Positions 26,603 through 47,101 of a stretch of DNA of 56,237 nucleotides are shown piece after piece. The stretch is from positions 1-56,237 of the forward strand of contig JAKAZO010000010.1 of NCBI GenBank assembly GCA_021815825.1, read 5' to 3'. The notes under the pieces were generated by a model. It did not search any database. It worked only from the letters and a program-made list of their open reading frames with translations, and was not told where the DNA came from. The translations under genes and the position numbers were made by a program. Within the stretch, counting starts at the first letter, position 1; each line of letters starts with the position of its first letter. Source of the stretch: Pseudomonadota bacterium (GTDB lineage: Bacteria; Pseudomonadota; Alphaproteobacteria; Acetobacterales; Acetobacteraceae).

Positions 26603-27949
26603 ATGCCCAGGCTCGTCGTCGTCGCCAACCGCATTCCCACGCCCCGCCGCGGCGCATCCCAGGCCGGCGGACTGGCGGTGGCGCTGCGCGAGGCACGCCT
26701 GCGGCGCGAGCTGCTCTGGTTCGGCTGGTCGGGCGAGATCGCCGAAGCCCCGGCCTGCTCGGCGCGCCTCAGCACACGGGCGCGCGCGAGCTTCGCCCAG
26801 GCCGACCTCGCGCCGGCCGAGTATCGCGGCTTCTATCGCGGCTACGCCAACGGCATGCTTTGGCCATTGCTGCATTTCCGCCTCGGCCTGGCCGAGTTCC
26901 GACGCGATGAATTCGTCACCTACCGCGGGGTGAACGAGCGCTTCGCCCGCATGCTCGCGCCCCTGCTGCGCGCTGACGACACGGTCTGGGTGCATGATTA
27001 TCACCTGATCCCGTTCGGTGCCGCGCTGCGCCGGCTGGCGCGTACGGGGGCGACGCCATGGGCTGGCCGGCTCGGCTTCTTCCTCCATGTTCCCCTGCCG
27101 CCGCCAGCGCTGTTCACGGCCCTGCCGCAGGCGGACGGGCTGCTGGCGGACTTCGCCGCCTATGACCTGGTCGGCGTGCAGACGCGCCAGGATGCGGGGT
27201 TCCTGACCGAAATGCTGGACGCGCGGGACATCCGCCCGCGAATCGGCGTGTTCCCCGCCGGCATCGACCCCGAAGGGCAGGCGCGAACGGCGCGCGAGCA
27301 GGTCCAGGGCCCGGAGGCGCGACGGCTCGCCGAAAGCCTGGGCCGGCGCGCGCTGATCCTCGGCATCGACCGGCTCGATTATTCCAAAGGGCTGCCGGAA
27401 CGGCTGCGCGGCTTCGAGCAGGTGCTGCGCCGCTTCCCCGAGCACCGCGACCGCGTGACGATGCTCCAGATCGCTCCGGTCTCGCGCGGCGACGTGTCCC
27501 AGTACCGGGCCCTGCGTCGGGAGCTGGACGAGCTGGCCGGACGCATCAACGCCGAATACGCCGAATTCGACGGGCTTCCGCTGCGCTACCTGACGCGCGG
27601 CCTGGCCCGCTCCACCCTGGCCGGGTTTCAGCGCCTCGCCCGCGTCGGGCTGGTGACGCCCCTGCGCGACGGCATGAACCTGGTCGCCAAGGAATATGTC
27701 GCATCGCAGGACCCGGAGGATCCGGGCGTCCTGGTCCTGTCCCGCTTCGCCGGCGCCGCCGACGATCTGGACGCCGCGCTGCTCGTCAACCCGCACGACC
27801 CCGACGAGATCGCCGAGGCCATCGCGGCCGCGCTCGCCATGGGCGCCGAGGAGCGCCGAACGCGTTGGCAGGCGCTCGCCGCCGCGGTCACGGCGACCAG
27901 CGCCGCACGCTGGGCCCAGGGCTTTCTGGCCGCGCTGGAGCAGGGCTGA
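26603..27949 (+). CDS. otsA: Trehalose-6-phosphate synthase
   Basis: 448-residue GT20 glycosyltransferase that joins UDP-glucose (or another NDP-glucose) and glucose 6-phosphate. Seen: N-terminal VVVANRIP and AGGLAVAL, VWVHDYHLIPFG at about 128-139, GIDRLDYSKGLPERL, and the donor-site segment PLRDGMNLVAKEY. The start at 26603 (MPRLVVVANR) fits the family; the open frame upstream overlaps otsB only. It ends 10 bases before repeat copy 1. Confidence 0.95.
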   Translation: MPRLVVVANRIPTPRRGASQAGGLAVALREARLRRELLWFGWSGEIAEAPACSARLSTRARASFAQADLAPAEYRGFYRGYANGMLWPLLHFRLGLAEFRRDEFVTYRGVNERFARMLAPLLRADDTVWVHDYHLIPFGAALRRLARTGATPWAGRLGFFLHVPLPPPALFTALPQADGLLADFAAYDLVGVQTRQDAGFLTEMLDARDIRPRIGVFPAGIDPEGQARTAREQVQGPEARRLAESLGRRALILGIDRLDYSKGLPERLRGFEQVLRRFPEHRDRVTMLQIAPVSRGDVSQYRALRRELDELAGRINAEYAEFDGLPLRYLTRGLARSTLAGFQRLARVGLVTPLRDGMNLVAKEYVASQDPEDPGVLVLSRFAGAADDLDAALLVNPHDPDEIAEAIAAALAMGAEERRTRWQALAAAVTATSAARWAQGFLAALEQG

Positions 27950-27959
27950 TCGCCCGGTC

Positions 27960-28063
27960 TAGAGCGTGATGACCGTAGGTGGAATCACCGCAGGTCTGAA
28001 TCACGCGCTCAAACAGAGAGATAGAGTGGGATGGCTGAGCGAAAGCGATGTCATCCCGCTCTA
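27960..28063 (+). repeat. 104-bp structured intergenic repeat, copy 1
   Basis: Inverted partner of 33017-33120, with 98 of 104 bases identical and no gaps. It starts with TAGAGCG and ends with CGCTCTA (7-bp terminal inverted repeat, TA at both ends). Two stem-loops are visible. The first has an outer stem of 27962-27970 with 28000-28010 (two-base bulge) and inner stems GACC/GGTC and GGTG/CACC with loop GAAT. The second is 28023-28033 with 28052-28062, 11 bp with one G-U. It lies between the convergent otsA and GST genes and may act as a bidirectional terminator. Form is like a MITE or REP-type element. Confidence 0.9.
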
Positions 28064-28094
28064 GGCCCCCGTCCAGCAGCCGCGGCGCCGACGC

Positions 28095-28715
28095 CTACGT
28101 CGGCGTCGCCGCCAGGTGGCGGGCGTAGGCCGGCCTGGCCAGCAGGCGTTCGTACCAGGCGCGCAGGTGCGGCGCGTCCGGCCGCTCGATCGGGAACCAG
28201 AACCAGCGGTGCAGATGCGGACCGTAGGCCATGTCCGCCAGCGTCAGCGTATCGCCGGCGAGGAACGGATGATGCGCCAGTTCGGCATCGAGAATGGCCC
28301 ACAGCCGGCCCGCTTCGGAGATCGCGGTCTCGATCGCCGCATTGTCGCGCCGCTCGGGCGGCGTGCGCACCAGGCCCCAGAACACGACCGTCTGCGGCCG
28401 GCCGAGGGTGAACAGGAAGTCCATCCAGCGATCGATATTGGCGCGCGCGCGCGGCGCCCGCGGCCAGAACGGGCTCTCCGGCGCGTAGGCGTCGCAGATA
28501 TAGCGCAGGATCGCGTTGCTCTCCCACAGCGTGAAGTCACCATCGACCAGGGTGGGGACGAGACCGGTCGGGTTCATGGCGCGGTATTCGGGCGTCGTCG
28601 TACGGCCGAAATTGCCGCCGGCATCGATGCGCTCATAGGGCAGCCCCAGCTCCTCGAGGAGCCAGATCACCTTCATCACATTGCTGGAATTGGCCCGTCC
28701 CCAGAGCGTCAGCAT
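28095..28715 (-). CDS. Glutathione S-transferase family protein
   Basis: 206 residues, with an N-terminal thioredoxin-fold domain (LWGRANSSNVMKVIWLLEELGLPYE) and a C-terminal all-helical domain. The loop with ANSSNV provides the likely catalytic Ser. Glutathione contacts are expected from GLVPTLVDG and ESNAILRYI, both present. The start at 28715 (MLTLWGRANS) matches the family; GGAG lies about ten bases upstream. It follows queE by 49 bases on the same strand. Substrate unknown. Confidence 0.9.
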   Translation of the reverse strand: MLTLWGRANSSNVMKVIWLLEELGLPYERIDAGGNFGRTTTPEYRAMNPTGLVPTLVDGDFTLWESNAILRYICDAYAPESPFWPRAPRARANIDRWMDFLFTLGRPQTVVFWGLVRTPPERRDNAAIETAISEAGRLWAILDAELAHHPFLAGDTLTLADMAYGPHLHRWFWFPIERPDAPHLRAWYERLLARPAYARHLAATPT

Positions 28716-28764
28716 CGCCGTTTTCTCCCCATCGTTCGCGCGCACCATAGGGCGGGCGGAACAG

Positions 28765-29415
28765 TCAGGGAATGCCAAGCAGCTTGTGCGTCTGCAGGCC
28801 GAGCCGCCAGAGCGGGTGGGCGAGACAATAGGTGATGGCGGCCGCAGTGTTCGCCGCCCGCGCCGGCCCGTCCATCGGCTGCAACAGGAAGTGACGGAAG
28901 CCGAGCCCGGCGAAGCGTTCCGGCTCGGCGCCGGGCTGCGGATAGACCAGCTTGAGCTCGTCACCCCGTTCGACCACCAGCGCCGCCCCCGCCTTGGGGC
29001 TGATGCAAAGCCAGTCGATCCCCGGCGGCGGCGCGATGGTCCCGTTGCTCTCGACGGCGATCTCGAAGCCCGCATCGTGCAGCGCCGCGATCAGCGGCGC
29101 ATCCACCTGCAGCAACGGCTCACCGCCGGTGAGCACGACGAAGCGACCGCCGGTTCCCTCCGGCCAGCGCGCGGCGATTGCGTCGGCGAGCGGCCCCGCA
29201 CCGGCGAAACGCCCGCCGCCGACGCCGTCAGTGCCGCGGAAATCCGTGTCGCAGAAGCCGCACACCGCCCGGGCGCGGTCGCGCTCGCGCCCGGACCAGA
29301 GGTTGCAGCCGGCGAAGCGGCAGAACACCGCCGGCCGGCCGGCATTGCAGCCCTCGCCTTGAAGGGTGAGGAAAATCTCCTTGACGGCGTAGCGCCGCAC
29401 CGCCGGGCGACTCAT
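28765..29415 (-). CDS. queE: 7-carboxy-7-deazaguanine synthase
   Basis: 216-residue radical SAM enzyme that contracts 6-carboxytetrahydropterin to 7-carboxy-7-deazaguanine in the queuosine pathway. The cluster motif is the CX14CX2C variant (Cys37, Cys52, Cys55) described for one clade of QueE, instead of CX3CX2C. N-terminal EIFLTLQGEGCNAGRPAVF and the glycine-rich VLTGGEPLLQ are also diagnostic. No queC, queD or queF is next to it in this window. Confidence 0.93.
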   Translation of the reverse strand: MSRPAVRRYAVKEIFLTLQGEGCNAGRPAVFCRFAGCNLWSGRERDRARAVCGFCDTDFRGTDGVGGGRFAGAGPLADAIAARWPEGTGGRFVVLTGGEPLLQVDAPLIAALHDAGFEIAVESNGTIAPPPGIDWLCISPKAGAALVVERGDELKLVYPQPGAEPERFAGLGFRHFLLQPMDGPARAANTAAAITYCLAHPLWRLGLQTHKLLGIP

Positions 29416-29488
29416 GGCGCGGCGCCGACCCTCGCCCCACCGCCCGTGCGGGCGGCCAGTTTCTCGCCCGTGAGGGCGGCGAAGTCAT

Positions 29489-29518
29489 CGCCGGCGCGAC
29501 GGGGAGCCCGCGCCGGCG
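29489..29518 (-). terminator. GC-rich hairpin after the phasin gene
   Basis: A perfect 10-bp inverted repeat (CGCCGGCGCG and its complement) with a 10-base loop, starting 6 bases beyond the phasin stop. No T run follows, so it may act through Rho or as an mRNA 3' end stabiliser. Confidence 0.45.
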
Positions 29519-29524
29519 TGCCGT

Positions 29525-29956
29525 TCACTTTCCGGCCTTCTCCATCAGCGATTTCACCTCGTCCATCGCTTCCATGAAGCGCCGGTTCAGCAGCCCGAGC
29601 GCCTCGGCATTCGCGTGCTGGATGAGATCGCTCAGCTCCTTGCTGTTGGCGATCGAGCGCTCGTACGAGTGCTTGAGCATTTCGGCCTGCTTCGCCGCCT
29701 TTGCCGCCGGCGCGTCCGCCTCGCTCATCACCTTCACCGTCTCGGCGAGTTCCGAGACCATCTGCTGGAGAATCTCCATGTGCCGCCGGGCGACGGTCTG
29801 CGCGCCCTCCAGGGCGATTCGGTTGGCCTGTGAAAATACTTCGATATTCCGCCGATAAGTGCCGAGCAATGTCTCCACGTCCGGTACGTTCGGCAGCTTC
29901 ATATCGGCGAACATCTTCATTGGATCGATGTCCGGGGTCTTCGGTCGCGTCGCCAT
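29525..29956 (-). CDS. Phasin family protein (polyhydroxyalkanoate granule-associated)
   Basis: 143-residue, largely alpha-helical protein without signal peptide. The segment NVPDVETLLGTYRRNIEVFSQAN, followed by QTVARRHMEILQQMVSELAE, is typical of the alphaproteobacterial phasin family. Phasins coat polyhydroxyalkanoate granules. An AAGGA ribosome-binding site lies seven bases before the ATG. No PHA synthase is nearby, so the granule link rests on family membership only. Confidence 0.88.
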   Translation of the reverse strand: MATRPKTPDIDPMKMFADMKLPNVPDVETLLGTYRRNIEVFSQANRIALEGAQTVARRHMEILQQMVSELAETVKVMSEADAPAAKAAKQAEMLKHSYERSIANSKELSDLIQHANAEALGLLNRRFMEAMDEVKSLMEKAGK

Positions 29957-30074
29957 CTGCGGTCCTTTCGGTTGCAGCCGTGAAGTGCTCCTCCGCGACT
30001 CTCACTATAGCCCCTCCGGCGGCGACGGAAACGCCTGGTATCGCCGGCGCCGCGTTTTATTCACGCCAGCGCGC

Positions 30075-30458
30075 TCAGGCCGAACGCCGCGCCGGACGCA
30101 ACGCCGAAATCGCGAGCACGACCCAGCTCGCGATCAGCACCGTGCCGCCGATCGGCGCGAGCGGACCGAAACGCGGCAGGCCGAGCGCGCCGGCGGTGAC
30201 CGTGGCGCAGAACAGCATGGTGCCGAGGGCGAAGCCGGCGGCCGCGAGATGGGCGATCGGGCCGCCGCGCGGGCTCCACACTGCGGCGGCCAGCAGGGCG
30301 AGCACGTGCCAGAGCTGCATCTCGACCGCGCTGGCGAGCAGCCGCGCCGCATGCCCCTCCAGCCCGCCATGGGCGCCATAGGCCGCCAGCGCCACTCCGC
30401 TCGCCCCGCCGATGCCGGCCAGCCCGACCCAGAGCCGCTGCAAACCACCGCCCGTCAT
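30075..30458 (-). CDS. DUF423 family small membrane protein
   Basis: 127 residues with four predicted membrane helices. The AAYGAHGGL near residue 25, MQLWHVLALLAAAV and LAPIGGTVLIASW are typical of the DUF423 (YgdD-like) family. The biochemical function of the family is unknown. It is divergent from the downstream iminopeptidase gene with a 77-base gap. Confidence 0.85.
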   Translation of the reverse strand: MTGGGLQRLWVGLAGIGGASGVALAAYGAHGGLEGHAARLLASAVEMQLWHVLALLAAAVWSPRGGPIAHLAAAGFALGTMLFCATVTAGALGLPRFGPLAPIGGTVLIASWVVLAISALRPARRSA

Positions 30459-30535
30459 GCCTCACTCTCCCGCCCCATCGGCCGCTTCCCTGGCCCGGTT
30501 CCGCAAATCGACGCGGCGTGCCAGACTTCGCCACC

Positions 30536-31492
30536 ATGCCACGCGGTGACCTCTTTCCCGAGATCGGACCCTACGAGACCGGCTTCCTCCCGCTCTCGGA
30601 TGGTCATGTGATGTATTGGGAGCAGGTCGGCAATCCGCGTGCCGCCGCGGCGCTGTTCCTGCACGGCGGCCCCGGCGCCGGCGCCGGGGCGGTGCACCGG
30701 CGCTTCTTCGACCCCGACTCCTGGCGCGTGGTGATTTTCGACCAGCGCGGCGCCGGCCGCTCCAGCCCGCTCGGCAGCCTCGTCGCCAACACCACGCCGC
30801 ACCTGGTCGCCGACATCGAGGCGCTGCGGCACCATCTCGGCATCGAACGCTGGCTGCTCTTCGGCGGCTCCTGGGGCTCGACGCTGGCGCTGGCCTACGC
30901 CCAGCAACACCCCGAGCGCGTCGCCGGCTGCGTGCTGCGCGGCATTTTTCTCGGCCGCGACGAGGAGGTGGAGTGGTTTCTGCACGGGCTGGGCCGCGTG
31001 TTCCCCGAGGCCCATGCCGCCTTCCTCGGCTTCCTGCCGGAGGCCGAGCGCGCCGACCCGCTCGGGGCCTATCTGCGCCGTCTGACCGACCCCTCCCCGT
31101 CGGTGCATCTGCCCGCGGCCCGGGCCTGGTCGATCTATGAGGGCGCCTGCAGTACCTTGCTGCCCAGCCCGGAGACGGTGACGGCCTTCGCCCAGGAGCG
31201 CAGCGCGCTCGGGCTGGCACGGATCGAGGCGCATTATTTCGCCCATCGCCTCTTCCTCCCGCGCCAGGGCCTGCTCGGGCAGATGCATCGCCTGGCCGGG
31301 ATCCGGGCCGAAATCGTGCAAGGCCGCTACGACATGATCTGTCCGCCGCGCACCGCCTTCGAGCTCGCCGCCGCCTGGCCCGGCGCAAGGCTGTCGCTGA
31401 TCCCCGACGCCGGACACTCGGCCCTCGAACCTGGCACGCGCCGCGCGCTCATCGCCGCCGTGGACCGTTTCCGCCAGGCTGCTCCCTTCTGA
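30536..31492 (+). CDS. pip: Proline iminopeptidase (alpha/beta hydrolase)
   Basis: 318-residue serine hydrolase that releases N-terminal proline from peptides. Oxyanion motif HGGPGAG at residues 43-49, nucleophile Ser112 in GGSWGS, Asp266 (GRYDMICP) and His294 (DAGHSA) form the expected catalytic set. Conserved FDQRGAGRSSP follows the family. The ATG at 30536 is preferred; an in-frame GTG at 30518 would add six residues. It is followed by the DUF4142 gene after 24 bases. Confidence 0.93.
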   Translation: MPRGDLFPEIGPYETGFLPLSDGHVMYWEQVGNPRAAAALFLHGGPGAGAGAVHRRFFDPDSWRVVIFDQRGAGRSSPLGSLVANTTPHLVADIEALRHHLGIERWLLFGGSWGSTLALAYAQQHPERVAGCVLRGIFLGRDEEVEWFLHGLGRVFPEAHAAFLGFLPEAERADPLGAYLRRLTDPSPSVHLPAARAWSIYEGACSTLLPSPETVTAFAQERSALGLARIEAHYFAHRLFLPRQGLLGQMHRLAGIRAEIVQGRYDMICPPRTAFELAAAWPGARLSLIPDAGHSALEPGTRRALIAAVDRFRQAAPF

Positions 31493-31516
31493 GCTTCACA
31501 CCGCCGCGAGAGTGAC

Positions 31517-32077
31517 ATGCCCCATCCCGCCGTGCCGCCGTTCTCCGCCGCTGCCGTCACGCTGTTCCTGGCACTCGCCGCTTGCGGGCCGATGCAGCCG
31601 TTCGGCCCCGCCGCCCCGCCGCCGCCACCCATGCCCGTCGCCCCGCCGCAGACCGTCGGGCCGCGCGATACCGCCTTCATCACCGATGCGAGCAGCGAGT
31701 TGATCGCCACCGCGGAGCTGAGCCGGGTCGCCAGCACCCACGCCCGCACGGCGCGGCTGCGCGAACTCGCCCAGCGCATCACGAGCGCGAGCGACGCCAC
31801 CAACGCCAAGCTGCGCGCCCTGGCTGCGGTCAAGGATGTCGCCCCCCCCACCGAACTCGGCCAGGACGATCTCCTGGCTCAGCAGATGGTGGCCTCGGCC
31901 AAGCCCGGCGAGTTCGATCGCGCGTTCCTCGATGCGGTCGGCCCGCACCAGGAGCGGCTGGTCTCGCTGTTCTCCGCCGCCAGCCAGAGCGCCGATCCAG
32001 ACATCAAGGCGCTGGCCGCCGGCGCCCTGCCGGGGCTGAAAACCGATCTGGACGCCCTGGCGCGCGCCGCGAAATGA
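31517..32077 (+). CDS. DUF4142 domain lipoprotein
   Basis: 186 residues. The signal peptide ends with a lipobox LAAC (Cys23), then a Pro-rich linker (residues 30-46), then a helical domain that fits DUF4142 (DTAFITDASSELIATAELSRVAS ... RLRELAQRITS). Family members are ferritin-like helical bundles of unclear function. Probably co-transcribed with pip; the next gene starts 40 bases later. Confidence 0.8.
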   Translation: MPHPAVPPFSAAAVTLFLALAACGPMQPFGPAAPPPPPMPVAPPQTVGPRDTAFITDASSELIATAELSRVASTHARTARLRELAQRITSASDATNAKLRALAAVKDVAPPTELGQDDLLAQQMVASAKPGEFDRAFLDAVGPHQERLVSLFSAASQSADPDIKALAAGALPGLKTDLDALARAAK

Positions 32078-32117
32078 TCGATCAGCCGCAACCAGGCCGC
32101 TTCACGAGGAGAGTAGC

Positions 32118-33029
32118 ATGAGCGCAGAACAAACGCGGGTCGGGGTGATCGGGCTCGGCTCGATGGGCATGGGCGTGGCCCTGAACCTCGCGCGCCAGGG
32201 CTTCGCCGTCTTCGGCTGCGACATCAATGAACAGGCCAGGGCGGACCTCGCCGCCGCCGGCGGCACCGCGCTCGCCAGCCCCGCGCAGCTCCCCGCCGAC
32301 CTCGACGCGGTCATCGTGCTGGTGGTCAACGACGCCCAGGTGCAGACGGTGCTGTTCGGCGCCGAGGGCTGCGCCGGGCGCCTCGCGGCCGGGACCGTGG
32401 TGATCTGCTCCGCCACCGTCGCCCCCGCGGCGGCGCGGGCGACCGGCGAGAAGCTCGCCGCAGCCGGGCTCGCCATGCTCGATGCCCCCGTCTCCGGCGG
32501 CGCCGCCGGCGCGCGCGCGGGAACGATGACGGTGATGGCCTCCGGCAGCGAGGCCGCCTTCGCCGCCGCCGAGCCGGTGCTGGCGGCGATCGCGGCCAAG
32601 GTCTGGCGGCTCGGCGCGGAGATCGGCGTCGGCTCGACGGTGAAGATGGTCAACCAGCTCCTCGCCGGGGTGCATATCGCCGCCGCCGCCGAGGCAATGG
32701 CGCTGGGCATCCGCGCCGGCGCGGACCCGCAGACACTCTACGATGTCATCTCCACCTCCGCCGGCAGTTCCTGGATGTGGCAGAACCGCGTGCCGCACAT
32801 CCTCGCCGGCGACGACACGCCGCTCTCGGCGGTGAATATCTTCGTCAAGGACCTCGGCATCGTGCTCGACCAGGCCCGCGCCCTCACTTTCCCCCTGCCG
32901 CTGGCCGCCAGCGCGCATCAGCTATTCCTCGCCGCCGCCGCCAACGGCCAGGGCAGCAAGGACGACGCCTTCGTCATCCGCGTCTGGCAGGCGCTCGCCG
33001 GGATTCCCCTGCCGGATAGAGTGGGATGA
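32118..33029 (+). CDS. ltnD: L-threonate dehydrogenase-like beta-hydroxyacid dehydrogenase
   Basis: 303 residues of the 3-hydroxyisobutyrate dehydrogenase family, NAD-dependent. The Rossmann motif GLGSMGMG is at 12-19, the substrate loop DAPVSGGAAGA at 122-132, and the catalytic Lys176 in GSTVKMVNQ. The segment with NRVPHIL and NIFVKDLGIV points to LtnD, which oxidises L-threonate to 2-oxotetronate. GAGGAG lies seven bases before the ATG. The last codons and the stop are provided by repeat copy 2 (from 33017), so the C-terminus has been re-formed. Substrate is inferred. Confidence 0.85.
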   Translation: MSAEQTRVGVIGLGSMGMGVALNLARQGFAVFGCDINEQARADLAAAGGTALASPAQLPADLDAVIVLVVNDAQVQTVLFGAEGCAGRLAAGTVVICSATVAPAAARATGEKLAAAGLAMLDAPVSGGAAGARAGTMTVMASGSEAAFAAAEPVLAAIAAKVWRLGAEIGVGSTVKMVNQLLAGVHIAAAAEAMALGIRAGADPQTLYDVISTSAGSSWMWQNRVPHILAGDDTPLSAVNIFVKDLGIVLDQARALTFPLPLAASAHQLFLAAAANGQGSKDDAFVIRVWQALAGIPLPDRVG

Positions 33030-33120
33030 CATCGCTTCCGCTCAGCCACCCCACTCTAGCTCTCTGTTTGAGCGCGTGATTCAGACCTGCGGCGATTCCA
33101 CCTGCGGTCATCACGCTCTA
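33017..33120 (-). repeat. 104-bp structured intergenic repeat, copy 2
   Basis: Reverse-complement partner of 27960-28063. In the element sense (minus strand here) six bases differ. Three are in loops or linkers and three are in stems, where each keeps pairing by switching between Watson-Crick and G-U. It overlaps the last 13 bases of the ltnD-like gene, including its TGA, and its outermost TAG (33120-33118) is the stop codon of the convergent amidase gene. Confidence 0.9.
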
Positions 33121-34458
33121 AATCCTGACCGCCGCCTCGATAGCGGCGGCGAGGCGGAACAGGCGCGAATCGCCCATGGTCTCGCCGACGAGCATGAACC
33201 CTACCGGCGGCTCGTCCGGCGCCTGGCAGGGCAGGCTGATGGCGCAGCGGTCGAGCAGGTTGGCGATCGAGGTGTTGCGCAGGGACTGCATGTTGATCCG
33301 GTAGTAGGCCTCGTCATCGGCCAGCTCATCGAGCCGCGGCGGCACGATGGGCACGGTCGGCATCGCCACGGCATCGAGATCGGCGGTCTCCGCATCCATG
33401 CGCGCGATCATGCGGGCACGCGCGGCGACGAGGCCGAGATAGTCCGCCGCGCTCTGCTCGCGCCCGCGCTCGATGCGCCCGCGCACGCGCGGGTCGTAGC
33501 CGGCGCCGGCCCGCGCCAGCAGTTCGCGGTGCCAGGCGAAGGATTCGGCGGCGGAGAAGCCGCCCAGCGCGGTGACCTCGCCGATCAGATCGAAGGCGGT
33601 GAAACGGCGGCGGACGATGCGCACCCCGGCCGCTTCCAGCCGCCCCAGCGCGCGCTCGAAGGCGCGCGCCACGTCGGCATCCAGCGCCTCGCACGCCACC
33701 GTCTCCGGCAGCCCGAGCCGCAGCCCCGCCAGTGGCGGCGCGACCGGCGGGGCCGGCGCCTCGCCCGCCATCACCGCGTCGAGAATGGCGCAGCAGGCGA
33801 CCGAGTTGGCCAGGGGCCCGATCGAGTCGAGCGTCGTCGAGAGCGGCACCGCGCCCTCGCGCGGGATTCGCCGCGCCGTCGGCTTGTAGCCGGTGACGCC
33901 GCAGAACGCCGCCGGAATGCGGCAGGAGCCGCCGGTATCGGTGCCGATCGCGCCGATCGCCATGCCGTCGGCGACCGAGACCGCGGCCCCCGAGGAACTG
34001 CCGCCGGGAACCCGCTGCCCGGCGCGATCCCACGGGCTCAGGGGCGTGCCGAAATGCGGATTGGGCCCGAGCCCGGAATAGGCGAACTCGGCCATGTTGG
34101 TGCGCCCGATCGGGATCAGCCCAGCCGCGAGCAGACGGGCCACGACGGGGGCGTGCCCGGTCGCGGGCGCGGCATCGGCGAGCACGCGCGAGCCCGCCGG
34201 CGTCGGCTCGCCGCCGATGTCGAACAGATCCTTCAGACTCACCGGAATGCCGGCGAAGGGCGAAGGCGCCCGCCCGGCGCGGCGCAAGGCGTCGATCGCC
34301 GTCGCCATGGCGCGGGCCGATTCGGCGTGAACCCGCACGAAGGCGCGCGCGCCCTGCCCGCCCGGGTCGGCGATCCGTTCGAGGCACGTCTCGACCAGCG
34401 CCCGCGCGCTGGTCTCGCCCGCGGCCAGCGCCGCCGCCGCCATCTGGATCGTGCGCAT
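33118..34458 (-). CDS. Amidase signature family hydrolase
   Basis: 446-residue amidase with the Ser-cisSer-Lys triad: Lys76 (VSLKDLFD), Ser154 (PGGSSSGAAV) and Ser178 (GTDTGGSCRIPAAFCG). The substrate is not known from sequence; relatives include indoleacetamide, allophanate and aryl-amide hydrolases. The start at 34458 (MRTIQMAAAAL) has no Shine-Dalgarno of its own, but a 14-codon leader ORF with a perfect site ends 4 bases before it. The stop codon lies in repeat copy 2. Confidence 0.88.
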   Translation of the reverse strand: MRTIQMAAAALAAGETSARALVETCLERIADPGGQGARAFVRVHAESARAMATAIDALRRAGRAPSPFAGIPVSLKDLFDIGGEPTPAGSRVLADAAPATGHAPVVARLLAAGLIPIGRTNMAEFAYSGLGPNPHFGTPLSPWDRAGQRVPGGSSSGAAVSVADGMAIGAIGTDTGGSCRIPAAFCGVTGYKPTARRIPREGAVPLSTTLDSIGPLANSVACCAILDAVMAGEAPAPPVAPPLAGLRLGLPETVACEALDADVARAFERALGRLEAAGVRIVRRRFTAFDLIGEVTALGGFSAAESFAWHRELLARAGAGYDPRVRGRIERGREQSAADYLGLVAARARMIARMDAETADLDAVAMPTVPIVPPRLDELADDEAYYRINMQSLRNTSIANLLDRCAISLPCQAPDEPPVGFMLVGETMGDSRLFRLAAAIEAAVRI

Positions 34459-34462
34459 CGCT

Positions 34463-34507
34463 TTACTGGTCCAAAGCTGGATAACCCACACGGAGACTTG
34501 CGTTCAT
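34463..34507 (-). CDS. Possible 14-residue leader peptide ahead of the amidase
   Basis: Short ORF encoding MNASLRVGYPALDQ. AGGAGG lies seven bases before its ATG (complement at 34515-34520), the best ribosome-binding site in this region, and its TAA is 4 bases before the amidase ATG, which has none. It could couple translation to the amidase or be the remnant of a larger gene. No protein evidence. Confidence 0.4.
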   Translation of the reverse strand: MNASLRVGYPALDQ

Positions 34508-45241: not shown

Positions 45242-47101
45242 TCACTGCGCCGCGGCGGGGGGCGCGCGCAGATCGGCAAATGCGCGCACCCGTCCGCTCA
45301 GCGCCTCCAGGTCAGCGCCGGCGAGCGTCTCCTTCTGCAGCAGCGCGATCGCGGTCTCCTTCAGCAGCGCCAGATTCTCGCCCAGAATCGCGCGCGCGCG
45401 GCCGAAGGCTTCCTCGATGAGGGAGCGGATGGCGCCGTCGATGGCCGAGGCGGTGCTCTCGCCGAAATGGCGCGGCTCCCAATCCATTCCCGGCGGCGCG
45501 CCGAGCATGCGCTGGTGCTCCGGCTCGTAGGCGACCTGCCCGAGCGTCTTGTCCATGCCGAACCGCGCCACCATGCTGCGCGCGATATCGGTGGCGCGCG
45601 CCAGATCGTCCGCCGCGCCGGTGGAGACCTCGGGGAAGATCAGGCTCTCCGCGGCCCGGCCGCCGAGCAGCACGGTCATGCGGTCGATGAGTTCCGAGCG
45701 GTCCATCAGGAACCGGTCCTCGGTCGGGCGCTGCAGCGTGTAGCCGAGCGCGCCGATGCCGCGCGGGATGATGGAGATTTTCTGCACCTTGTCGGTGCCC
45801 GGCAGCGCCATGGAGACGATGGCGTGGCCGAGCTCGTGGTGCGCCACCACGTCGCGCTCGTGCGGGTTGAGCAGTCGGTTGCGCTTTTCCAGCCCGGCGA
45901 CGATGCGCTCGATCGCCTGCACGAAATCCGGCTCGGTGACGAGGTCGCCGCCCCGCCGCGTCGCCACGATGGCCGCCTCATTGACCAGATTGGCGAGGTC
46001 GGCGCCGGTGAATCCCGGCGTCAGCGCCGCCACCCGCTCCACCGATACCTCCGGCGCCAGCTTGATCTTGCGGATGTAGATTTTGAGGATATCGATGCGG
46101 CCCTTCTTGTCCGGCCGGTCGACGAGCACCTGGCGGTCGAAGCGGCCGGGGCGGAGCAGCGCCGGGTCCAGGGTCTCGGGCCGGTTGGTGGCGCCGAGCA
46201 GGACGATGCCGCTGGTGGGGTCGAAACCATCGAGTTCGGCGAGCAGCTGGTTGAGCGTCTGCTCCTTCTCGTCGTGCCCGCCGCCGGGCATGAAGCCGGT
46301 GCGGGCGCGGCCGAGACTGTCGATCTCGTCGATGAAGATGATCGCCGGCGCCTTGGCGCGCGCCTGCTCGAACAGGTCGCGCACACGCGCCGCGCCGACA
46401 CCGACAAACATCTCGACGAATTCGGAGCCGGAAATGGAAAAGAACGGCACCTTGGCCTCGCCGGCGACGGCGCGGGCGAGCAGCGTCTTGCCGGTGCCTG
46501 GCGGGCCAACGAGCAGGACCCCCTTGGGGATGTGCGCGCCGAGCCGGCCGTATTTCTCCGGCGCCTGGAGGAACTCGACGACCTCCTTCAGCTCCTCCTT
46601 GGCCTCGTCGACGCCGGCGACGTCATCGAACTTCACGCCGACATCGCTCTCGACATAGATCTTGGCGCGCGAGCGCCCGACCGACATCAGCCCCGAGCCC
46701 ATGCCACCGGCCCCCATCGGGCGGATCAGCCAGAACCACAGCAGCAGGAACACGAGCGTGGGAGCGAACCAGCCGAGCACGCTGGCCAGGAGGCCGGGCC
46801 CCGGTTCGCCGGAGAAGGAGACCTTCGCCGCGGCCAGGCTGTCGGCGATCGCGGGATCGACGCGCACGGTGCTGAAATGGGCGGGCTTGCCGGCCGGCGC
46901 GTTCTTCAGCCGGCCGGTGATGTGGTCGGTACCGACGACCAGATCGTCGAGCTGGCCCTGGTGCAGCAGGTCCTGGAAGCGGCTGTAGGGCAGTATCTCG
47001 ACGTCGGCGCGCAGCCCCAGCCAGTCATGGATCGACAGCACGGCCAGAACCGCGAGCACGATGTACCAGATGTTGATATGGTGTTCGCGCTTGAGCTCCA
47101 T
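45242..47101 (-). CDS. ftsH: FtsH-type membrane AAA+ metalloprotease with an HELGH metal site
   Basis: 619 residues: membrane helices at about 8-26 and 107-128 around a periplasmic domain, AAA+ module with Walker [14 protein letters not shown], Walker [12 protein letters not shown] and the arginine-finger region, then an M41 zinc protease domain with HELGH at 422-426 (most FtsH proteins have HEAGH) and an Asp near residue 498 as third ligand ([11 protein letters not shown]). The C-terminal tail is Pro/Ala-rich. The family degrades membrane and short-lived proteins. A second, canonical FtsH probably exists elsewhere; that is inference. Confidence 0.93.

Follow-up and report, generated by a model that had tools for sequence, protein, structure and literature searches.

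RIME1 of Rhizobium and Bru-RS of Brucella are roughly 100-bp, two-palindrome repeats of Alphaproteobacteria. RIME repeats are mentioned in PMC2573895 and PMC2873474. CIR repeats (Caulobacter CcrM-associated intergenic repeats; Chen and Shapiro 2003), also of Alphaproteobacteria, are ~110 bp long and are described as two arms joined by a linker, with TA termini and a GANTC site in the loop of one arm (PMC2229807, PMC10969869). They are intergenic according to a 2024 review of miniature inverted-repeat transposable elements (MITEs) (PMC10969869), and, according to another review, it has not been established what target duplication they make, how they move, or what GANTC does (PMC2229807). Two other groups, Correia/NEMIS and RUP, are small TA-flanked MITEs like the element described here; RUP is ascribed to IS630-Spn1 (PMC2229807). 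Both have one 5'-3' stem, however, whereas the present element has two arms, and the passages of PMC2229807 on these repeats describe no CcrM site.

The window, that is, the whole 56,237-nucleotide stretch of DNA analyzed here, contains two copies of this element, c1 and c2. Alignment confirms the inverted 104-nt pair reported in the initial annotation, with the two copies 94% alike, and places their features as follows.

27960 to 28063, plus strand: entire copy c1, with a TA at each terminus; the 5' neighbor is a GT20-domain gene and the other neighbor a GST-domain gene
27964 to 28006, plus strand: hairpin 1 of c1, element nt 5-47 (fold and alignment)
27982 to 27986, plus strand: GAATC of c1 (GANTC, CcrM-type site), element nt 23-27, in the apical loop of hairpin 1
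28007 to 28021, plus strand: linker of c1 (fold and alignment)
28022 to 28063, plus strand: hairpin 2 of c1, element nt 63-104 (fold and alignment)
33017 to 33120, minus strand: copy c2, whole element; the orthologous site is occupied in relative G001 and empty in relative G002
33074 to 33116, minus strand: hairpin 1 of c2 (fold and alignment)
33094 to 33098, minus strand: GAATC of c2, element nt 23-27 (sequence and alignment)
33059 to 33073, minus strand: linker of c2 (fold and alignment)
33017 to 33058, minus strand: hairpin 2 of c2 (fold and alignment)
33118 to 33120, minus strand: TAG stop of an amidase gene (33118-34491, minus strand), made from the TA and first G of c2
33027 to 33029, plus strand: TGA stop of a 3-hydroxyisobutyrate-dehydrogenase-like gene (32118-33029, plus strand), within c2

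The window copies have two arms and a linker, TA termini, a GANTC in the loop of one arm, and an intergenic position; the stop codon of the GT20-domain gene lies 11 nt upstream of c1. The element fits every tested point of the published account of CIR repeats, the comparison being with that description rather than with the CIR1-CIR4 sequences, and by the same description it is best filed as a CIR-type MITE. Our analysis adds a TA duplication, a link to IS630, and a fixed position of GANTC at nt 23-27; some copies found elsewhere in the class differ from CIR repeats in where GANTC lies, which is in the opposite arm or, judged by eye, within a stem.

Copies, subfamilies, and distribution

The initial annotation had proposed a covariance-model search as a check on the pair. 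A model built from 12 copies (R1) and run against the 3.2-Mb draft genome of the window gave 32 matches at E<=1, so the likeness of c1 and c2 is not due to chance. A second match at one place on contig C7, the un-copy-like match C90:49517, and a match on C73 (E=0.55) were dropped, leaving 29 credible copies, 16 of the window's type (type A) and 13 of type B. The stems of type A (GCGTGATGACC) and type B (GCGTCTGTCCGGC) are unrelated, but the layout is common to both: a core near GTAGGTGGAATCACCGNAG, the linker CAAACARAGAG, and the two-hairpin plan. R1 has matches in 16 of the 24 genomes searched within the taxonomic family and in 0 of 16 genomes from other families, with at least 99 in G020 and at least 30 in each of the draft assemblies G000, G001, and G009. 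A broader model (R2) with stricter filters matched 19 of 190 class genomes, a count that includes the genome of the window. Overlap of at least 60 nt with a called gene was seen for 9 of 119 copies and for 0 of 30 in the window's own genome (simple gene caller). Removing 11 of the 119 (10 that are not full length and one duplicate, L060) left the 108 distinct full copies tabulated below, of which 57 carry a terminal TA at both ends, 80 at the 5' end, and 71 at the 3' end.

Several variants were observed alongside these copies. L035 (G000:C7:6226-6329) has a hairpin 2 whose interior runs opposite to that of the other copies, as a flip of the palindrome would produce. A possible third subfamily with the loop AGAAATTCCTATACGAATTTCT lies on G000:C89 just before the type B copy at 45948-46052, and a similar stretch lies beside L034. 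Four successive half-element matches spaced ~63 nt apart at G002:C20:102508-102755 may be a tandem array of hairpin 1.

Insertion at TA and the termini of IS630

Comparison with relatives shows how the elements are inserted. The c2 site is empty in G002 and has the sequence C-TA-A there; in the window, c2 is bounded by a TA on each side. The copy at G002:C28:19820-19923 is likewise inserted at a TA, with the empty form present in G000 and breakpoints in G001 that are consistent with the empty form in an unaligned comparison. Where copies are in tandem (G020:C163, G002:C18), they overlap by exactly the terminal TA. The empty sites and the TA-sharing tandems thus display the TA target-site duplication of an IS630-family MITE. 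The empty-site alignment for G000:C89:48099 is not clean, and among the relatives compared there is no clean empty site for c1; where the window has c1 and spacer only (27950-28095), G001 and G002 carry a gene of ~1.2 kb. The target of one insertion (G002:C28 near 19924; G000:C90, L204) is itself a single-hairpin palindrome, TAGAGCACGGTCCGRCC...CTCT, more copies of which lie beside L069 and L083.

The target conforms to YTAR: among the 108 copies, C or T precedes the 5' TA in 86% and G or A follows the 3' TA in 96%. Many of these targets are stop codons. In G002, the empty c2 site has a TAG at the same amidase codon (minus strand); insertion of c2 into the TA of that TAG restored the codon, with the TA now followed by the G that starts c2. 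In 109 full copies, the terminal TAG serves as the stop codon of a called gene 32 times at the 5' end and 10 times at the 3' end (p=0.0009); two of the rows counted are dependent (L060 repeats L140, and L070 is the c2 ortholog), and without them the counts are 30 and 10. Hairpin 1 thus adjoins the gene in 32 such insertions versus 10, and the element strand is then read as the 3' end of the mRNA.

The TA duplication argues against a second class of mobile palindromes, REP-type elements moved on single-stranded DNA by a Y1 transposase (RAYT or IS200-like). Hairpins and a strand preference would suit such elements, but Y1_Tnp (PF01797, E<=1e-5) is absent from all 15 family genomes searched, a set that includes G000, G001, G002, G006, and G009, with G020 outside it. 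The REP/RAYT explanation is disfavored by this absence, and we regard it as highly improbable.

The termini of the element point instead to IS630. IS630-type transposases (DDE_3) are present in 14 of the 24 family relatives, and several of these insertion sequences start and end with TAGAGC plus TA. A profile built from four transposases with TAGAGC-type ends detects this group in 61 of 150 genomes of the family and 27 of 240 of the class. The closest likeness is in G020, whose resident IS630, L281, begins TAGAGCGTGATGAC, identical at 14 of 14 nt to the terminus of the G020 elements; nt 7-20 of L281 match the other terminus of the elements at 12 of 14 positions, and its 3' end is TAGAGTCTGATGAC. 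The TAGAGC terminus is common to the elements and to alphaproteobacterial IS630s in general, and homology between the two is not evident past nt 27. Fifty-three distinct IS630 5' ends, on the transposase-start side, were collected by a rule that demands nt 1-6 and is blind to GANTC; identical ends were removed, and 45 further loci gave no end (28 with none found, 11 off the contig, and 6 without a transposase match). C or T flanks 48 of these 53 insertion sequences, and G or A flanks 49. The element therefore shares with alphaproteobacterial IS630s of the ISRm2011-2 kind the TAGAGC terminus, the TA target and duplication, the YTAR flanks, and, as described below, GANTC at nt 23-27, but these IS630s are ~1050 nt long and carry a gene, whereas the element is a gene-free 104 nt with two hairpins. 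We conclude that the element is very probably an IS630-type MITE.

A partner IS630 in the same genome was found in G020 (L281), whereas the window's draft genome gave no match. No IS630 of the TAGAGC group was found in the draft assemblies G000, G001, and G009, despite their R1 matches, and G003, G004, G010, and G011 have IS630s (DDE_3) and no R1 match. The idea that element copy number tracks the presence of IS630 was accordingly rejected when R1 counts were set against DDE_3 across the family genomes. Among the IS630 ends compared, no clear partner was found for subfamily B or for hairpin 2 of the G006 elements; L344 (TAGGGTCTGTCC) and L270 (TAGAGCGTGTCTGTC) resemble the type B stems by eye only. 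A separate two-hairpin element with different stems, L283 (G020:C170), abuts the 3' end of an IS630 and has, by eye, a GAATC at nt 23.

Stem changes and RNA structure

The initial annotation had taken the stem substitutions between the two window copies as a sign that the RNA made from one strand is under selection, with possible roles as an mRNA 3'-end protector, a bidirectional terminator, or a small RNA. The underlying observations are correct. The copies differ at element positions 17, 28, 62, 72, 83, and 99; alignment and folding place 17, 62, and 83 in unpaired stretches and 28, 72, and 99 in stems, and each of the three stem changes leaves the element strand with a G-U or A-U pair. That strand folds more stably than shuffled sequences (z -7.2 and -6.3 for the two copies) and more stably than its complement (-51.8 versus -39.4 and -54.8 versus -42.0 kcal/mol). 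Among 28 diverse copies, changes on both sides occur in 25 of 31 pairs, and the covariation score is 0.563 versus at most 0.078 for slid partners; the alignment was fitted to the model structure and leans toward it.

Counting events across six groups of copies gives a divided answer. One-sided transitions on the element strand yield G-T more often than A-C pair types (58 versus 33, p=0.011, with L035 and L098 left out of group A; 46 versus 26, p=0.024, in a smaller set with L098 out and L035 out for hairpin 2 only). Stem divergence in hairpin 1 (0.000-0.038) is below that of unpaired columns (0.038-0.115) in all six groups. These two results, together with the stop-codon orientation, lend the one-strand proposal partial support. 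Pairing, however, is broken about as often as it is kept: breaking events number 108 (33 A-C and 75 other) and keeping events 84 (58 G-T and 26 double changes), or 134 versus 141 when counted by cells. In four of the six groups, hairpin 2 (0.059-0.143) is more divergent than the unpaired columns. Stem changes that break pairing as often as loop changes occur were one outcome that the initial annotation had itself named as telling against its proposal, and the 108 versus 84 events and the divergence of hairpin 2 go far in that direction.

Genomic placement is similarly mixed. With genes called by a simple codon model, 56 of 95 copies lie between convergent genes, versus 28% expected from intergenic length, 33 between tandem genes, and 6 between divergent genes. 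Position relative to gene 3' ends, a check proposed in the initial annotation, shows this convergent excess and the more frequent proximity of hairpin 1 to the stop codon; between tandem genes, antisense copies outnumber sense copies (21 versus 12). Neither window copy has a terminator-like T-run after a GC hairpin, which argues against the terminator role, and Rfam covariance models gave 0 matches at E<=1 in 27500-33600.

An RNA whose structure is selected on one strand and whose dispersal is incidental would thus account for the stable folds, the G-T excess, the constrained hairpin 1, the orientation at stop codons, and the convergent placement. It would not account for the surplus of broken pairs, the rapid change of hairpin 2, or the antisense excess, and it lacks a T-run and an Rfam match; mobility would be required in any case. 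We consider this explanation improbable. The TA duplication, the empty sites, and the common IS630 end make the element a transposable element first, to which any RNA effects would be secondary. Selection on RNA structure was therefore rejected as the main explanation, the one-strand bias and the conserved hairpin 1 being too little to carry it. A transposase site could account for the constrained hairpin 1 too, and the G-T excess may stem from shared descent or strand-biased mutation. The IS630-MITE interpretation leaves the G-T excess and the orientation bias unexplained, and these leave room for what may be a secondary RNA effect at mRNA 3' ends.

Among otherwise near-identical copies in G006 and G020, the stems of hairpin 2 vary far more than those of hairpin 1, and the two arms often change in step. 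Template switching from one arm to the other (quasi-palindrome correction), rather than selection for pairing, could be the main origin of paired stem changes. The 26 double Watson-Crick change events, the many double changes in hairpin 2 of near-identical G006 and G020 copies, and the inverted hairpin-2 interior of L035 are what such a process would leave. The G-T excess is not explained by it, nor is the 2.4- to 7.5-fold greater variation of hairpin 2 over hairpin 1 in the five groups with a ratio, and as the main source of the paired changes we view it as a tentative possibility on the doubtful side.

A GANTC site at a fixed position in one end

The interpretation of the element as an IS630-derived MITE draws attention to nt 23-27, which form the CcrM-type site in both window copies. 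Counting from TA, GANTC occupies exactly these nucleotides in 45 of the 53 IS630 5' ends (27 of the 34 family ends and 18 of the 19 class ends), with several of the eight exceptions, all still counted, looking like wrong picks. The central N is A in 30, G in 6, C in 5, and T in 4 of the 45. Beyond nt 1-6, positions 23, 24, 26, and 27 are the most conserved (89-92%), followed by nt 28 at 75%. The site is confined to one end, as 0 of 46 IS630 3' ends have it at nt 23-27. Named plasmid IS630 copies, hand-picked from two listings (24 fetched and 23 used, with the end of the Acetobacter copy placed by hand), have the site in 15 of 17 alphaproteobacterial cases, the exceptions being Methylobacterium radiotolerans and ISMno11, and in 0 of 6 others (Pseudomonas K-62, Azotobacter, and four cyanobacteria). 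In the Azotobacter salinestris plasmid copy (L363), the 5' end reads AATTC at nt 23-27 and the 3' end carries GANTC at nt 23. Two Methylobacterium copies (L364, L365) belong to an IS630 group without GANTC that is close to pMR68 of Pseudomonas K-62 and whose hosts are mostly Alphaproteobacteria.

Among the elements, GANTC is at nt 23-27 in 69 of the 108 family copies and absent there from 39. It is also present in 14 of 17 elements found across the class (L318, at 55 nt, being left out) and absent from three, versus 0.12 expected by shuffling; seven of the 14 have the site at this distance from one end and seven at this distance from the opposite end, and in L310 a long stem, not a loop, appears by eye to hold it. 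Loci collected with a pattern that demands GANTC were excluded from these counts. A 438-aa frame in the genome of the window contains a RAMA domain of the CcrM type. Within subfamilies, GANTC in inserted copies decays at about the mean rate; GANTC thus seems to matter for moving rather than for staying.

The site could instead serve only the promoter of the transposase, for example via GcrA, and be a relic without a cis role in the MITEs. Its location on the transposase-start side of IS630 and its decay at about the mean rate in inserted copies are in keeping with such a role; counting against it are transposase-free elements of quite different stems that keep the site at nt 23-27, at either end, in 14 of the 17 class-wide cases. 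We consider a promoter-only role rather unlikely.

The transposase of ISY100, an IS630-family insertion sequence that also has the TA target, protects a 24-bp end together with a few adjacent bases (PMC2170065). By analogy, the GANTC of the element would sit close to the inner margin of the stretch that the transposase binds. End methylation controls transposition of IS10 (Dam) and, at one end only, of maize Ac (PMC5371812). Both have a methylation motif at an end, as the element does, but their methylase and transposase families differ from those considered here, and gating of the element is proposed by analogy.

Judged from sequence, it is likely that the element is a CIR-type MITE moved by IS630 with a CcrM-marked end. 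In the mechanism that we propose, the non-autonomous element would be moved in trans by IS630-family (Tc1/mariner-type, DDE) transposases with TAGAGC termini; its insertions are at YTAR targets, in many cases at the TA of a stop codon, which is rebuilt as TAG. The variable stem would be the binding site of a particular transposase, such that subfamilies with exchanged stems would have followed different IS630s. Methylation by CcrM of the GANTC at one end may couple transposition, or expression of the transposase, to replication as in IS10 and Ac, a step for which we see the case as about evenly balanced. Once inserted, a copy decays with no visible constraint on GANTC.

A broader proposal, to which we give even credence, is that the nt 23-27 GANTC at one end of an alphaproteobacterial IS630 subgroup and its MITEs (CIR-type and perhaps RIME-type) acts as a sensor of the replication fork. 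Hemimethylation after passage of the fork would license one sister copy to move, as in Ac and IS10, and would tie transposition to the CcrM/GcrA cell cycle. No link between GANTC or CcrM and IS630 ends was found in the mainly open-access literature searched. The CIR-type repeat itself is already known; as far as searched, the IS630 origin and the fixed position of the CcrM site are new.

An IS630 origin is the likely source of the abundant CIR-type repeats and accounts for the many that sit exactly in stop codons. A methylation motif that keeps the same position, exact to the base, at one end of a group of transposons throughout the class, and that is absent from that position in the six relatives sampled outside it, makes control by the cell cycle directly testable. 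If true, sensing of the replication fork would account for the CcrM sites in CIR repeats.
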